From NCBI RefSeq assembly GCF_030269645.1, contig NZ_BSTR01000021.1:1-64000 (forward strand): DNA of 64,000 nt, in the 5' to 3' direction. The notes beneath the pieces were generated by a model. It saw nothing but the letters and a program-made list of their open reading frames with translations, searched no databases and had not been told where the DNA came from. Positions 96 to 52,299 of this stretch are shown here, in pieces. The translations under genes and the position numbers were made by a program. Each line of letters begins with the position of its first letter. Within the stretch, counting starts at the first letter, position 1. Source of the stretch: Actinokineospora sp. NBRC 105648. Lineage in GTDB: Bacteria; Actinomycetota; Actinomycetes; Mycobacteriales; Pseudonocardiaceae.

Positions 96-1492
96 GGTCA
101 GGTGTCAACCAATCTCGGAGCAGTCCCGACGGTCTCGAGGTCTTCAGCTGACCAGCGCGACAGGTCGGTGTCTTTGGGGAAGTACTGCCGTAGCAGGCCG
201 TTGGTGTTCTCGTTCGTCGGGCGCTGCCAAGGTGAGTGCGGGTCGGCGAAGAACACCCGCGTCCCGGTCTCCAACGCGAACTGCGCATGGCTCGAAAGCT
301 CCTTCCCGCGATCCCATGTCACGGTCTTGCGCAGTTGCTCGGGCAGATGGGTGATCGACGCGGCCAGCGCCGCGTTCATCGCGAGAGCCCCGTAGCCGCC
401 GAGCGAGGGCCCGTTCTTCACCGGTGGTTTCTCGCCCCAGCCCTCCAACCGCGGGAAGTGCACCAGAAGCGTGGACCTGCTGCGCTCGACAATGGTGCCG
501 ATTGCCGACCTGCCCGTCCCGATGATCAAGTCCCCTTCCCAGTGGCCGGGGACGGCTCGGTCCTCGGCCTCGGCGGGGCGCTCGCTGAGGACGACATCGG
601 CGGTGATGTGTCCCTGCGGCTTGTTCCGCGACCGGGCCCTAGGCTCTCGCAGCGCTCGACCCGTGCGCAGACACGTGACCAGTTCACGCTTGAGCGCGCC
701 ACGCCCCTCGATGAACAGGGACTCCTAGATCGCCTCGTGGCTGATGCGCATGGACTCATCATCGGGGAAGTCGACCTTCAGACGATGCGCGATCTGCTCC
801 GGACTCCACGCTGTCGACCAGCGCCTGTCTTGACGATGGGGCTTGTTCAACCCCCTCCACGGCGGTGTCTCGGGGCCCGCGACGACCGTGCCGTCAGGGC
901 GACGGACATCGCCGGCAAGCCGGTCCTGCACGTACTCACGCAACCGCTTGTCACTCGCCAGCTTCGCCGTCTTCGGGCGCTTGGCTGCCTGCTGTGCCTT
1001 CCACTGCGCCACCACGGCGCGGTAGACCGGCTTGCCACCCCTGGTCGCGGCATTGCGCCGCAGCTCACGAGATACGGTCCCAGGGTCGCGGCCGATCGTG
1101 CGGGCGATCTCACGCACACCCTTGCCCTGAGCCCTCAGCAGCCCGATCTCTTCCCTCTCAACAAACGACAAGTACCGGCCAGCGGGATCGTCGAGGCTCA
1201 GCGGCGTCATCCCGCCAGCGTGTCGAAACCAGCGGATCCCGACCGGTGACGACACGCCGACTCCCTCCGCGGCTTGGACCGTCGTGACCCCGGAAGCGAT
1301 CAGCCGCCAGAAATCCCGCTGAACCGCTCGCGACGGCTCCGGCCGCCCCGGTGAGCGCATCGGCGCCCGCATCGCCCTGTCCGCAGCCCACTGACGTCGA
1401 GCCCCGTTCGGTGCCTGCGGCACCTGTTTCCTCGGCCATCCCATCCAACACCTCCGTCATCGAGGTGTTGCGACGACCAGTTGAACTCACCT
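96..1492 (-). mobile_element. IS30-type insertion sequence, inactive copy
   Basis: The element encloses the transposase at 98-1444. The upstream end is placed at about 1492 because an IS3-type OrfB reading frame breaks off there in the middle of its conserved HTDRG motif. The two ends, read inward, start with the related strings GGTGAGTTCAAC (from 1492 on the complement) and GGTCAGGTGTCAAC (from 96 on the + strand), a plausible imperfect inverted repeat. No target duplication could be identified. The boundaries are inferred, give or take a few bases. Confidence 0.6.
98..1444 (-). pseudogene. IS30-family transposase interrupted by an in-frame TAG
   Basis: One continuous reading frame of 449 codons, broken only by TAG at 727-725. 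The N-terminal part has YLSFVEREEIGLLRAQGKGVREIARTIGRDPGTVSRELRRN, split here as the IS30 helix-turn-helix (FVEREEIGLL then IGRDPGTVSRELRR). The C-terminal part carries the catalytic region with HWEGDLIIG before about 529, KTVTWDRGKE and NTNGLLRQYFPK, which are typical DDE residues of the family. Family members read ...HEAIYQSLF at the break, and here TAC-CAG appears as TAG-GAG, so two adjacent substitutions made the stop. The ATG at 1444 has GGAGGT six bases upstream. Length and both domains are otherwise intact, so this looks like recent inactivation. Confidence 0.85.
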
Positions 1493-47132: not shown

Positions 47133-49469
47133 ATGGACCGCAAGCGCCTGCTTCGCAACCCGCTGCTGTGGATCCTGGCGGTGTTGCTGATCTATTTCGC
47201 CTTCAGCATGCTGTTCGACGACACGCGGGGCTACACCTCGGTGCCCACGTCGAAGGCCGTCGCCCAGATCCAAGCCGGCAACGTCAAGGTCGCCGAGCTC
47301 GGCGACAAGGAACAGCAGCTCAAGCTGACCCTGAACACCCCCATCGACCAGGACGGTCAGCAGGTCACCCAGATCCTGGCCCAGTACCCCGGTCAGGCGA
47401 CCGCGCAGATCTACGAGGCGCTGGTCGCCAAGACCGGGACCGAGTTCAAGACCAACGTCACGCAGGACTCGTTCCTCACCCAGATCTTGATCTTCCTCAT
47501 CCCGCTGGGCCTGCTGTTGCTGCTGCTCATGTGGATGATGAACAACGTCCAGGGTGGCGGCAACCGGGTGCTCAACTTCGGCAAGTCCAAGGCCAAGCAG
47601 TTGCCCAAGGACATGCCCAAGACCACCTTCGGCGACGTCGCCGGGGCCGACGAGGCGGTCGAGGAGCTCTACGAGATCAAGGACTTCCTGCAGAACCCGG
47701 CGCGCTACCAGGCCCTCGGCGCGAAGATCCCCAAGGGCGTGCTGCTCTACGGGCCGCCGGGAACCGGCAAGACGCTGCTCGCCAGGGCGGTCGCCGGTGA
47801 GGCCGGGGTGCCGTTCTACTCGATCTCGGGTTCGGACTTCGTCGAGATGTTCGTCGGTGTCGGCGCCTCCCGGGTCCGCGACCTGTTCGAGACGGCCAAG
47901 CAGAACTCGCCGTGCATCATCTTCGTCGACGAGATCGACGCGGTCGGCCGCCAGCGCGGCGCGGGCCTCGGCGGTGGGCACGACGAGCGCGAGCAGACGC
48001 TCAACCAGCTGCTCGTGGAGATGGACGGGTTCGACGCCCGCGGCGGCATCATCCTGATCGCGGCCACCAACCGGCCGGACATCCTGGACCCGGCGCTGCT
48101 GCGCCCGGGCCGGTTCGACCGGCAGATCCCGGTGTCCGCGCCCGACCTGACCGGCCGCAAGAAGATTCTGCAGGTGCACTCCAAGGGCAAGCCGATGGCG
48201 CCCGACGCCGACCTGGCCAGCCTGGCCAAGCGCACCGTCGGCATGTCCGGCGCCGACCTGGCCAACGTCCTCAACGAGGCCGCGCTGCTCACCGCCCGCC
48301 AGGGTGGTTCGCTGATCGACGGCGCCGCCCTGGAGGAGTCGGTCGACCGGGTCATCGGCGGGCCCGCCCGCAAGAGCCGGATCATCTCCGACAAGGAGAA
48401 GAAGATCACGGCCTACCACGAGGGCGGCCACGCGCTCGCCGCGTGGGCGATGCCCGACCTGGAGCCGGTCTACAAGCTCACCATCCTGCCCCGCGGCCGC
48501 ACCGGTGGGCACGCGCTGGTCGTCCCCGAGGACGACAAGCAGCTGATGACCCGCTCGGAGATGATCGCCCGGCTGGTGTTCGCCCTCGGCGGCCGCTCGG
48601 CCGAGGAGCTGGTGTTCCACGAGCCGACCACCGGCGCGTCCAGCGACATCGACCAGGCCACCAAGATCGCCAAGGCGATGGTCACCGAGTACGGCATGAG
48701 TGCCCGGCTCGGCGCGGTCCGCTACGGCCAGGACCAGGGCGACCCGTTCCTGGGCCGGTCGATGGGCCACGGCGCGGACTACTCGCTCGAGGTGGCGCAC
48801 GAGATCGACGAGGAGGTGCGCAAGCTCATCGAGGCCGCGCACACCGAGGCGTGGGACGTGCTCAACACCTACCGCGACGTCCTCGACGACCTGGTCGTGG
48901 AGCTGCTGGAGAAGGAGACGCTCACCCGCAAGGACCTCGAGCGGATCTTCTCCAAGGTGGAGAAGCGGCCCCGGATCACCGCGTTCAACGACTTCGGTGA
49001 GCGCACGCCGTCGGACAAGCCGCCGATCAAGACCCTGCGCGAGCAGGCCCTCGAGCGCGGCGAGACCTGGCCGGAGGACGCCAAGCCCGAGCCGGTGCCC
49101 ACACCGGTGGCGGCGATCCCGGGCACGGGCGACCTGCCCGGCGGTCCGCCGCGGACCAACCCGCAGCTGCCCCCGGTCAACGGGGCGGGCCCCAACGGCA
49201 CGCCCCCGCCCTACGGCAGCCCGCCGCCCTACGGCGCGCAGCCGCCGCCCTACGGCGGCCAGTCGACCGGCAGGCACTCGGGTCCGCCGCACTACGGCGC
49301 CCCGCCCGGGTGGACCCCGGCGACCACGCCGGGCCAGTCCGGCGGTCCGCACCAGTCCTGGCAGCCGACCTGGGGTGAGCGCCAGAACGAGGCGCAGCAG
49401 CCCGGTGACCGGTCGGGTGCTCCCAAGGACTGGGATCAGGACTCCGGTGGGCGCGGCAACGGTTCCTGA
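47133..49469 (+). CDS. ftsH: ATP-dependent zinc metalloprotease FtsH
   Basis: A 778-residue membrane-bound AAA+ protease. Helix 1 is at about residues 8-26, an extracytoplasmic domain follows, helix 2 at about 115-135 ([19 protein letters not shown]). Walker A is GPPGTGKT from residue 207, Walker [12 protein letters not shown], the second region of homology [20 protein letters not shown], and the zinc site HEGGH at about 429-433. The last 120 residues are a Pro/Gly/Tyr tail with PPYG repeats, longer than in E. coli but usual in actinobacteria. It degrades unfolded membrane proteins. The fol operon follows after 43 bases. Confidence 0.97.
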
Positions 49470-49512
49470 TGCGATGGTGGCGGCGACGTGCCGCGACGAT
49501 CCGGAGGTACCG

Positions 49513-50625
49513 ATGACGACCAGCCGCAACGGGGCCGGGACGGAATCCGTCCCGGCCCCGGGCTTTGACCGGGACCGCGCCGAGCGGGCCATCCGCGAGC
49601 TGCTCCTCGCCTGCGGCGAGGACCCCGACCGCGACGGTCTACTGGAGACCCCCGCCCGGGTGGCCCGGGCCTACGCCGAGCTGTTCGCCGGCCTCTACAC
49701 CGAGCCGGACACGGTGCTGGACAAGACCTTCGACGAGAGCCACGACGAGCTCGTCCTGGTCACCGACATCCCGATGTACTCCACCTGCGTGCCCGCCGAC
49801 CAGCCGGTGGACGCCGTCGACGGCCCGCGCGCGGCCGCCGACGTCCGGCCCGGCGATCTGCTGTGGACACTCGCGGGTGGACGGTTGGCGCCGACCACGG
49901 TGATCGGCGTCACCGCCAAGCGCTCCCGCGAGCTGGTCGAGGTGCGCACCACCGCGGGCGCGTTCACCGTCACCGCCGACCACCCGCTGGCCACCTCGGC
50001 CGGGTGGCGGGAGGCCGGGGACGTCGCGGGCGCGCACCTGGAGTGGACCGGCTCGGCCGCGCCCACCCGGGAGTTCGTCACCGCCGGAGCCGGTCCGGCC
50101 GACCGGGGCGACTGGCTGCTCCGGCATGGTTTCGCCCCCGAGCACACCACCACCCTCGGGCAGTCGCGGTGGGTGCGGGTGGAGTCGGTGCGCCCGGTCG
50201 CGGCCGCGGACACCGTCTACAGCCTCACCTGCGACCCGCACCCGACCTTCCTGGTCGCCGGGCACCTCACGCACAACTGCGAGCACCACCTGGTGCCCTT
50301 CCACGGCCACGCGCACGTCGGCTACATCCCCAACGCGCAGGGCCGGGTCACCGGGCTGTCCAAGCTGGCCCGCCTGGTCGACCTCTACGCCAAGCGCCCG
50401 CAGGTCCAGGAGCGGCTCACCTCGCAGGTCGCCGACGCGCTGATGCGCAAGCTGGAGCCGCGCGGGGTGATCGTGGTCATCGAGGCCGAGCACCTGTGCA
50501 TGGCCATGCGCGGCATCCGCAAGCCGGGCGCGCGCACCACCACCTCGGCGCTGCGCGGCATCCTCAAGTCCTCGCCGTCCTCGCGCGCGGAGGCCATCCA
50601 GCTGATCAACGGGCGCAGCCGGTGA
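49513..50625 (+). CDS. folE: GTP cyclohydrolase I precursor with mini-intein
   Basis: First step of folate synthesis, GTP to dihydroneopterin triphosphate. The frame encodes 370 residues. Residues 1-91 and 256-370 together make a 206-residue enzyme of normal size: [16 protein letters not shown], then [18 protein letters not shown], and [19 protein letters not shown]. Between MYST and CEHHL lies a 164-residue intein (its own entry). The insertion is directly at the Cys that binds the catalytic zinc, so the enzyme can only work after splicing. ATG 49513 follows GGAGGTACCG. The stop overlaps the folP start (GTGA), the first coupling of the folE-folP-folB-folK chain. Confidence 0.95.
49786..50277 (+). 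other. Mini-intein in FolE (164 residues)
   Basis: The intervening segment starts with Cys92 ([10 protein letters not shown], block A) and ends VAGHLTHN at Asn255, followed by Cys256 as +1 residue of the C-extein. Block B is [11 protein letters not shown] with Thr154 and His157 of the TxxH motif. Blocks F and G are [18 protein letters not shown] and HN with the penultimate His. All residues for standard splicing (Cys1, TxxH, HN, Cys+1) are there. There is room for only about 60 residues between the splicing halves, and no LAGLIDADG motif is visible, so the homing endonuclease is lost. Confidence 0.93.
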
Positions 50626-51452
50626 CCCTGCTGCCCCAACCCGGCCGGTGCGCGGTGGTCGGTGTGCTCAACGTGACCCCGGACTCGTTCTCCGACGGCG
50701 GTCGCTACCTCGGCCACGACGACGCGGTCGGGCACGGCGTCGCGCTCTGGACCGAGGGCGCAGACCTGGTCGACGTGGGCGGCGAGTCCACCCGGCCGGG
50801 GGCCGAGCGGGTCGACGCCGACTCCGAGATCGCCCGGGTCGTGCCGGTGATCCGCGACCTGGTGTCCGCCGGCGTGCTGGTCAGCGTCGACACCACCCGC
50901 GCCCGGGTGGCCGAGGCCGCGGTGGCCGCGGGCGCCGCGGTGATCAACGACGTCTCCGGCGGGCTCGCCGACCCGGACATGGTCAGCGTGGCCGCCGACA
51001 CCGGGGTGCCCTGGATCCTGATGCACTGGCGCGGGCACAGCCGGGACATGCAGACCCTGGCCGACTACGTCGACGTGGTGGCCGAGGTGCGCGCCGAGCT
51101 GTCCGCGCAGGTCGACGCGGCCCTGCGGGCGGGTGTGCGGGCCGAGGCGATCGCGCTCGACCCGGGCCTGGGCTTCGCCAAGACCGGCGCGCACAACTGG
51201 GCGCTGCTGCGCGACCTCGACGCCCTGCTGGAGCTGGGTTTCCCGGTGTTGGTGGGGGCCTCGCGCAAGCGGTTCCTGGGCAGGCTGCTCGCGGGCGAGG
51301 ACGGCACGCCGCGCTCGCCCAGCGGTCGGGAGGACGCCACGGCGGCCATCTCCGCGCTGGTCGCGGCGGCGGGAGCTTGGGGGGTGCGGGTGCACGACGT
51401 GCGGCGCTCGCTCGACGCGGTGGCCGTCGCGGCCGCGATGACAGGAGGCTGA
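50622..51452 (+). CDS. folP: Dihydropteroate synthase
   Basis: A 276-residue TIM-barrel enzyme that joins 6-hydroxymethyl-dihydropterin pyrophosphate and p-aminobenzoate; the sulfonamide target. Motifs are [37 protein letters not shown] and [15 protein letters not shown] 50622 overlaps the folE stop and its own stop overlaps the folB ATG (TGATG). Coupling suggests stoichiometric synthesis. Confidence 0.97.
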
Positions 51453-51817
51453 TGACCGACCGGATCACGCTGACCGGCCTGCGGGTGCGCGGCAACCACG
51501 GCGTCTTCGCCCACGAGAAGCGCGACGGGCAGGAGTTCGTGGTCGACATCACGCTGTGGATCGACCTGCGCGAGGCCGCGGCCACCGACGACCTGCGGCA
51601 CACCGTGCACTACGGCGAGCTCGCCGAGCGGGCCGCCGCGGTGCTGGCGGGCCCGTCGCGGGACCTGATCGAGACCGTCGCCGCCGAGATCGCCGACGCG
51701 GAGATGGCCGACGAGCGGGTGCACGCCGTCGAGGTCACCCTGCACAAGCCGAGCGCGCCCATCCCGCTGACCTTCGCCGACGTGGCGGTCACCGTGCGCC
51801 GGTCGCGCCGCCGGTGA
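51452..51817 (+). CDS. folB: Dihydroneopterin aldolase
   Basis: A 121-residue enzyme that cleaves dihydroneopterin to 6-hydroxymethyl-dihydropterin and glycolaldehyde. Family segments are [20 protein letters not shown], with the catalytic-region Gly-x-His-Gly, [10 protein letters not shown] and [19 protein letters not shown] with the active-site Lys. It starts at ATG 51452 (overlapping the folP stop) and overlaps folK by GTGA. It forms an octamer in relatives. Confidence 0.96.
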
Positions 51818-52299
51818 GCCGCGCCGTGCTGTCCATCGGCTCGAACCTCGGCGACCGGTTGGCGAACCTGCGGGTGGCCGTCGACGGCCTCGCCGACGTG
51901 CTGGTCGCGGTGTCCCCGGTGTACGAGACGGCCGCCTGGGGCGTCACCGACCAGCCGGACTTCCTCAACGCCGTGCTGGTGGTCGAGGACGAGGGCACCG
52001 ACGCCTGGGGGTGGCTGCGCCGCGGCCAGGCGCTGGAGGAACGGGCCGGGCGAGTCCGGCTGGAGCACTGGGGCCCGCGCACGCTGGACGTGGACGTGGT
52101 CACCGTCGACGGCGTCCGCAGCGACGACCCCGAGCTGCTGCTCCCGCACCCCGGCACGCACGAGCGGGCCACGGTCCTGGTGCCGTGGCTGGACATCGAC
52201 CCGGCGGCCGAGGTGCCCGGCCGGGGTCCGGCGGCGGCGCTGCTGGCCGGGCTGGACACCGCCGGTGTGCGCAGGCGCGACGACCTGGAGCTGCGATGA
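51814..52299 (+). CDS. folK: HPPK: 6-hydroxymethyl-dihydropterin pyrophosphokinase
   Basis: A 161-residue kinase that transfers pyrophosphate from ATP to hydroxymethyl-dihydropterin, making the folP substrate. The motifs are [33 protein letters not shown] and the magnesium site [14 protein letters not shown]. The usual LLxxLQxIE helix is [13 protein letters not shown] here. Start GTG 51814, overlaps folB; its stop overlaps the next gene (ATGA). Confidence 0.96.

Follow-up and report, generated by a model that had tools for sequence, protein, structure and literature searches.

The Mtu RecA mini-intein (PDB 2IMZ/3IFJ) is a class 1 intein with a Cys1, a TxxH motif, a penultimate His, a terminal Asn and a Cys+1. 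An Asp in block F is usual in class 1 active sites, although it does not define the class. In class 3 inteins, residue 1 is no nucleophile, and the nucleophilic Cys of block F sits at the position of this Asp. The V-ATPase intein 7QSU, presumably from Thermococcus, has both splicing and endonuclease regions. The role of the block F Asp is treated in a review (PMC10663303). Mycobacterial DnaBi1, an actinobacterial intein of an essential enzyme, is described as a class 3 intein with its block F Cys as the nucleophile (PMC7360933). Yeast WHO elements and HO are described as intein-like sequences whose splicing residues are gone; WHO elements adjoin an intact, re-coded target gene, and on homing they replace the 3' end of FBA1 (PMC7282813). 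A mob-like free-standing endonuclease has been reported beside GTP cyclohydrolase I in a Vibrio phage (PMC5107563).

We analyzed a window of 64,000 nucleotides from the soil actinobacterium Actinokineospora sp. NBRC 105648 (contig NZ_BSTR01000021.1), in which the gene for the precursor of FolE (GTP cyclohydrolase I, the enzyme that starts folate synthesis) occupies 49513..50625 on the + strand (370 codons plus stop; TIGR00063 folE, 2.6e-65). The start was most likely the ATG at 49513, judging from a Shine-Dalgarno-like GGAGG at 49503-49507 and the onset of homology. Upstream lies ftsH (47133..49469, +; Peptidase_M41, 9.1e-69), and folE is followed by folP (50622..51452, +; Pterin_bind, 4.2e-83), folB (51452..51817, +; FolB, 2.9e-36) and folK (51814..52296, +; HPPK, 2e-33), with the start of folP overlapping the folE stop (GTGA). 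The library matches to the FolE flanks, TIGR00063 of NCBIfam and PF01227 of Pfam (1.5e-69), are each split in two. The N-extein (49513..49785, +) ends in ...DIPMYST and covers PF01227 positions 2-71, and the C-extein (50278..50622, +), the remainder of FolE, covers positions 68-178 and includes the second zinc cysteine in EHLCM. Between them lies an in-frame insert of 164 codons (49786..50277, +; 492 bases), flanked by ...PMYST and CEHHLVPF. Removing the insert by script left an ordinary FolE of 206 residues counted from the ATG, or 218 from an upstream GTG. The insert has a GC content of 76.8% compared with 72.2% for the exteins, and in a FolE extein tree the exteins nearest to the window copy are those of Actinokineospora.

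An earlier note on this DNA had proposed that this insert is a 164-residue mini-intein with Cys1, TxxH, His-Asn and Cys+1, and both its boundaries, exact to the base, and its motifs were confirmed. The Cys1 codon (49786..49788, +), the predicted first nucleophile, is invariant in 49/49 aligned rows. Block B reads TADH (residues 63-66; 49972..49983, +), its Thr, Asp and His invariant in 49/49, and block G ends in His163-Asn164 (50272..50277, +), invariant in 49/49, so that the intein finishes on the Asn codon at 50275-50277. The next codon (50278..50280, +) encodes Cys+1, the predicted second nucleophile. A nucleophile at residue 1, a block B TxxH, a terminal Asn and a Cys, Ser or Thr at +1 are thus all in place, and Cys1, TxxH, penultimate His, terminal Asn and Cys+1 are common to this intein and that of Mtu RecA; the two match weakly in sequence across block B and the C-terminus. 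The earlier note had also advised comparison with intein families and with relatives that lack the insert. Searched alone, the insert matched Pfam Intein_splicing weakly (E=0.0048, under the Pfam cut-off), had no match in NCBIfam, and found the Mtu RecA intein as its best PDB match (E=0.038). A profile of the FolE intein family, 325 positions long, aligned through its positions 12-312 with the solved V-ATPase intein (7qsu; E=1.1e-6), across both the splicing and the endonuclease regions; as regards the HINT fold, solved inteins are matched by this profile at the sequence level. The window copy differs from 7QSU in its host, in its insertion site and in having no endonuclease. Among relatives, the main folE gene is split in 7/16 genomes of the same genus and intact in 9/16, and the nine intact proteins read ...M[YF]ST^CEHHLVPF without interruption, which provides exact empty sites for the in-frame insertion.

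The weak library scores could also be taken to mean that the insert arose through faulty assembly or annotation, or that it is a domain of Hint/BIL type instead of an intein. We assign this explanation a negligible probability, since independent assemblies, including the single-contig genomes G086 and G055, carry the same insert in the same place, and since the His-Asn pair and the +1 Cys are invariant. Chance was ruled out because 20/150 genomes of the family, the window's among them, have a complete homologue there. By its sequence the insert is an intein, and a mini-intein, as the endonuclease domain of a full-length homing intein is absent from the window copy. A search of the window's genome for further inteins (PF14890, E 0.001) found none, although PF14890 does not pick up the FolE intein of that genome either.

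Inteins at this position, FolE site a, have a broad distribution. Two non-exhaustive scans with short patterns, one of named genomes and one of viral contigs with two patterns each, identified 48 loci (45 genomic, 3 viral; 34 long, 14 mini), and the intein occupied the identical FolE site in 48/48. Eight phylum labels were represented, namely Actinomycetota, Rokuibacteriota, Planctomycetota, Nitrospirota, Gemmatimonadota, Myxococcota, Methylomirabilota and Elusimicrobiota, with one metagenome contig for each phylum other than the first two. Of the 150 family genomes, which include that of the window, 27 matched the intein; 20 of these have FolE inteins at site a, divided equally into mini forms of 164-181 aa (10) and long forms of 296-325 aa (10), and the remaining seven have only weak matches elsewhere. 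Across Actinomycetota at large, 11/396 genomes matched at 1e-8: the window's own, four with further FolE inteins (L118, L119, L120 and L123; L119 begins at a contig end), three with free-standing relatives, and three (G583, G717 and G546) with weak matches elsewhere. In G717 (L127), the family profile weakly matches another protein, in which a Cys-rich stretch precedes an intein-like start. The earlier note did not recall FolE as a well-described intein host, and we likewise found no report of a FolE intein in the open-access literature on inteins with GTP cyclohydrolase, folE or folate biosynthesis. It had also allowed that inteins at this site might already be published from many taxa; the many taxa are borne out by the genomes, but publication is not, as far as the open-access literature goes.

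The viral copies came from the pattern scan, which gave three loci where a search of viral contigs with the window intein as sole query had found none. The intein of a long relative had no match among plasmids. A viral FolE precursor matched 392 INPHARED phage records; coverage of the query stayed below 80% in all of them, and among the matches listed (25 of 392) it was 34-42%, as expected of exteins alone. In 2/3 viral loci, folE adjoins 7-deazaguanine genes: QueC in L106, and QueC, PTPS/QueD and a QueE-like protein in L108. Near the folE gene of L106 there is also a gene matching a phage transposase family. As folE genes with inteins occur in viral loci, viral carriage is a possible route by which the FolE intein has spread.

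In a tree of 51 splicing domains (17 mini, 34 long), the mini and long states require five changes, four of them forced by well supported branches. If these changes are read as losses, the endonuclease would have been lost repeatedly. LAGLIDADG_3 was matched by 6/6 long inteins tested, five of them above the cut-off. By simple counting, omega of the mini-inteins was 0.27 in six Actinokineospora and 0.29 in four Actinophytocola, compared with 0.09 and 0.13 for the exteins of the same six Actinokineospora; in eight long inteins it was 0.12 for the N-splicing region, 0.14 for the endonuclease and 0.07 for the C-splicing region, all with synonymous rates that are rough owing to high GC. These values indicate purifying selection on the FolE mini-intein. 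The FolE of Amycolatopsis sp. 2-2 (L080) has an unusually long extein branch, and its N-extein differences are inflated in its omega set, maybe through a frameshift. In the extein tree, an intact folE (L034, genome G154) is nested within the window's intein group, on branches that are not strongly supported; its position fits loss by recombination and suggests a possible precise loss of a mini-intein.

The position of the insert, its motifs, the exact empty sites, purifying selection, a single FolE in the genome (see below) and long same-site relatives with an endonuclease region are all read from sequence. Taken as a whole, the insert is very probably a mini-intein that can splice but has lost its endonuclease, left over from a homing intein with site specificity for the part of folE that encodes the zinc motif CEHH.

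Block F is where the FolE intein departs from the usual pattern. Alignment with the Mtu RecA intein places Ser146 (50221..50223, +) at the position of the block F Asp, where 47/48 relatives have Ser and 1/48 has Ala; the canonical Asp is therefore missing. The next His of block F is His in 36/48 relatives and Tyr in 12/48. Three residues after Ser146 lies Cys149 (50230..50232, +), which is Cys in 48/48 relatives and hence invariant in 49/49, whereas the Mtu RecA intein has Val at the equivalent position. One of the two genome-scan patterns contained Cys149, but the residue is also kept in the loci found without that pattern (20/20 of the family set, the three viral loci and the four Actinomycetota-wide loci L118, L119, L120 and L123). 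Besides its host, the Ser and the block F Cys, the FolE intein differs from that of Mtu RecA by a conserved W..(R/K)HGF segment preceding block F. With Ser in place of Asp and an invariant Cys149, the predicted active site is non-canonical. A class 3 mechanism was considered and rejected: the intein has Cys1, and its block F Cys is off the Asp position. The FolE intein resembles DnaBi1 in that both are actinobacterial inteins with a cysteine in block F and an essential enzyme as host, but DnaBi1 is described as class 3 (PMC7360933), whereas the FolE intein has Cys1 and carries its Cys elsewhere in block F. A natural control is provided by relatives of the intein that lie outside folE: in 7/7 undisrupted open reading frames, Gly stands in place of Cys1 and Leu in place of Cys149, neither the His of TxxH nor His-Asn is retained, and the GDG endonuclease motif is kept.

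The split FolE is the single PF01227 protein of the window's genome. Neither a second FolE (PF01227) nor a FolE2 (PF02649) was found there, and a backup enzyme of either type was rejected on these grounds. Folate synthesis of this host should therefore depend on FolE splicing, as the earlier note had anticipated, and splicing is probably essential in this genome. Among 25 intein-bearing genomes examined, the split FolE is the sole PF01227 match in 15, the window's included, a count that takes in G028 (86% complete) and goes with a FolE2 search covering the window's genome; the other 10/25 have an additional FolE that could cover a failed splice, for which no counterpart was found in the window's genome. 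In one further sequence (G165:C6:4701-5150), the folE model matches at 2-79 and 113-177 abut, and positions 80-112 are seemingly missing.

It could be supposed that the intein is dead or cleaves only, with no ligation, and that either the unspliced FolE or its two pieces are functional. The non-canonical block F would suit this explanation. It is opposed by the split FolE being the only FolE found in the genome, by the invariant splice-junction residues and the purifying selection on the intein, and by the loss of precisely these residues in the relatives outside folE, and we consider it very improbable. For a splicing-competent intein, we infer constitutive splicing in vivo along the textbook class 1 path. 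The first product would be a precursor of 370 aa, in which the zinc cysteine, as the +1 residue, is not yet free of the intein, so that the precursor would presumably be inactive. Cys1 would then attack the Thr-Cys bond, the N-extein would transfer to the +1 cysteine, and cyclization of Asn164 would release a ligated FolE of 206 aa able to bind zinc.

When an intact FolE of the same genus was aligned with Listeria FolE (4uqf), the cysteines of CEHH and EHLC fell on chain positions 91 and 163, which a 13-residue offset converts to Cys78 and Cys150 in the published Listeria numbering (PMC6718149). The residue of this intact FolE that corresponds to Cys+1 aligns with the canonical Cys78, so the predicted +1 nucleophile would double as a zinc-site cysteine, which agrees with the placement of the insertion exactly at the zinc cysteine of CEHH in the earlier note. 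That note had further supposed that redox or metal effects on two cysteines could gate splicing. Both cysteines are present, but a count of two is incomplete, as a third, Cys149, is invariant in the family. In such a switch, zinc or oxidation at Cys1, Cys149 or Cys+1 would slow splicing, and FolE activity would follow zinc or redox state. It would be in keeping with the fact that Cys+1 itself belongs to the zinc site and that Cys149 is invariant and lost wherever the splicing residues are lost. Zinc is reported to block the mycobacterial DnaB intein reversibly by binding its nucleophile (PMC7360933), and zinc-free crystals of Listeria FolE are described with both zinc-site cysteines as a disulfide (PMC6718149). 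On the other hand, inteins are said usually to occupy conserved sites (PMC2814812), so that insertion at a zinc site requires no regulatory reason; several inteins are zinc-inhibited in vitro according to the DnaB paper (PMC7360933); and Cys149, at the Val position of the Mtu RecA intein, may merely pack the core. Zinc or redox gating of FolE splicing is a reasonable hypothesis, and we rate a conditional switch as unlikely.

The second zinc cysteine of FolE is occupied by another intein in three genomes (G619, G435 and G775) among 39 of the family of G619, a count of split genes that leaves out partial matches such as those in G725, G708 and G788. Both zinc cysteines of FolE are occupied in G619 (L120/L133), whereas G435 (L188) and G775 (L187) have an intein at the second only. 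G775 also has an intact FolE, and its second-site intein runs into the contig end, so that the first junction alone is visible. Wherever a junction is visible, the +1 residue that remains is the zinc cysteine. The second-site intein matches LAGLIDADG_3 and has no detectable similarity to the first-site family.

Relatives of the intein also occur as free-standing genes. In 16/199 genomes of the Streptomyces-like genus of G533, such a gene lies directly 3' of an uninterrupted folE (19 loci: L121, L122, L124 and L135-L150). Seven are undisrupted open reading frames, one is an open reading frame with a late stop, and eight are broken or remnants. Across the seven undisrupted frames, omega was lower for the endonuclease (0.16) than for the two splicing regions (0.34 and 0.25). 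Mapped on a tree of the DNA upstream, the gene is widely scattered, with 12 changes against a shuffled mean of 14.6, a clustering slightly above chance (16-19 of 500 shuffles were as low). At the intein site, folE differs from the gene-free consensus by an average of 12.9/42 mismatches in gene-bearing loci (16) and 6.4 in gene-free loci (57); the gene-free set comprises 29 folE loci taken for their top scores, which by themselves would be a biased sample, and 28 more, and the results rest on this enlarged set. Gene-bearing genomes are represented by a site of the VSL-CEHH-LLPF type. The excess of between-group divergence along folE is 0.006 in the 5' part, 0.067 at the site and 0.021 beyond it, with 0.061 in the 3' window 186-210. 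A re-coded site accompanies the free-standing gene in 14/16 loci and is found in 12/57 without it (Fisher 2e-6, for a motif chosen after the sequences had been seen). On seven independent pairs this link was not significant (on average 4.5 pairs the same way and about zero the other, median p 0.125). In G829 (L141/L153), a piece of the free-standing endonuclease gene is repeated, inverted, downstream, which would be either a duplication or an assembly fault.

The free-standing relatives and the re-coded folE, an association seen in sequence, resemble WHO elements: they too are intein-like with their splicing residues gone, and they too adjoin an intact, apparently re-coded target gene. They differ from WHO elements as described (PMC7282813) in being bacterial and in having no duplicated target end; no duplicated 3' folE fragment was found in the 19 loci of the 16 genomes, where 1.8-4.3 kb downstream was read. 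We see roughly even chances that the FolE zinc site is the hub of one mobile lineage at every stage, with homing inteins in bacteria and viral contigs, repeated mini-inteins, a doubly hit gene, and a free-standing, splicing-dead gene beside a presumably cut-resistant folE, the last being a bacterial counterpart of WHO that escaped from an intein.

The FolE intein is ordinary in kind, and its host and site are new as far as the open-access literature was searched; with it, a folate enzyme joins the list of intein hosts. With one FolE, one intein and a selectable pathway, it offers a simple case of presumably essential splicing. As one residue would be both the predicted nucleophile and a zinc-site cysteine, the question of metal sensing by inteins becomes testable, with folate as the read-out and a substrate that occurs in nature. 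The relatives around one site, some mini, some full, one double and some splicing-dead, form an unusually complete life history, a rare stepwise record of intein life, endonuclease loss and exit from the host protein.
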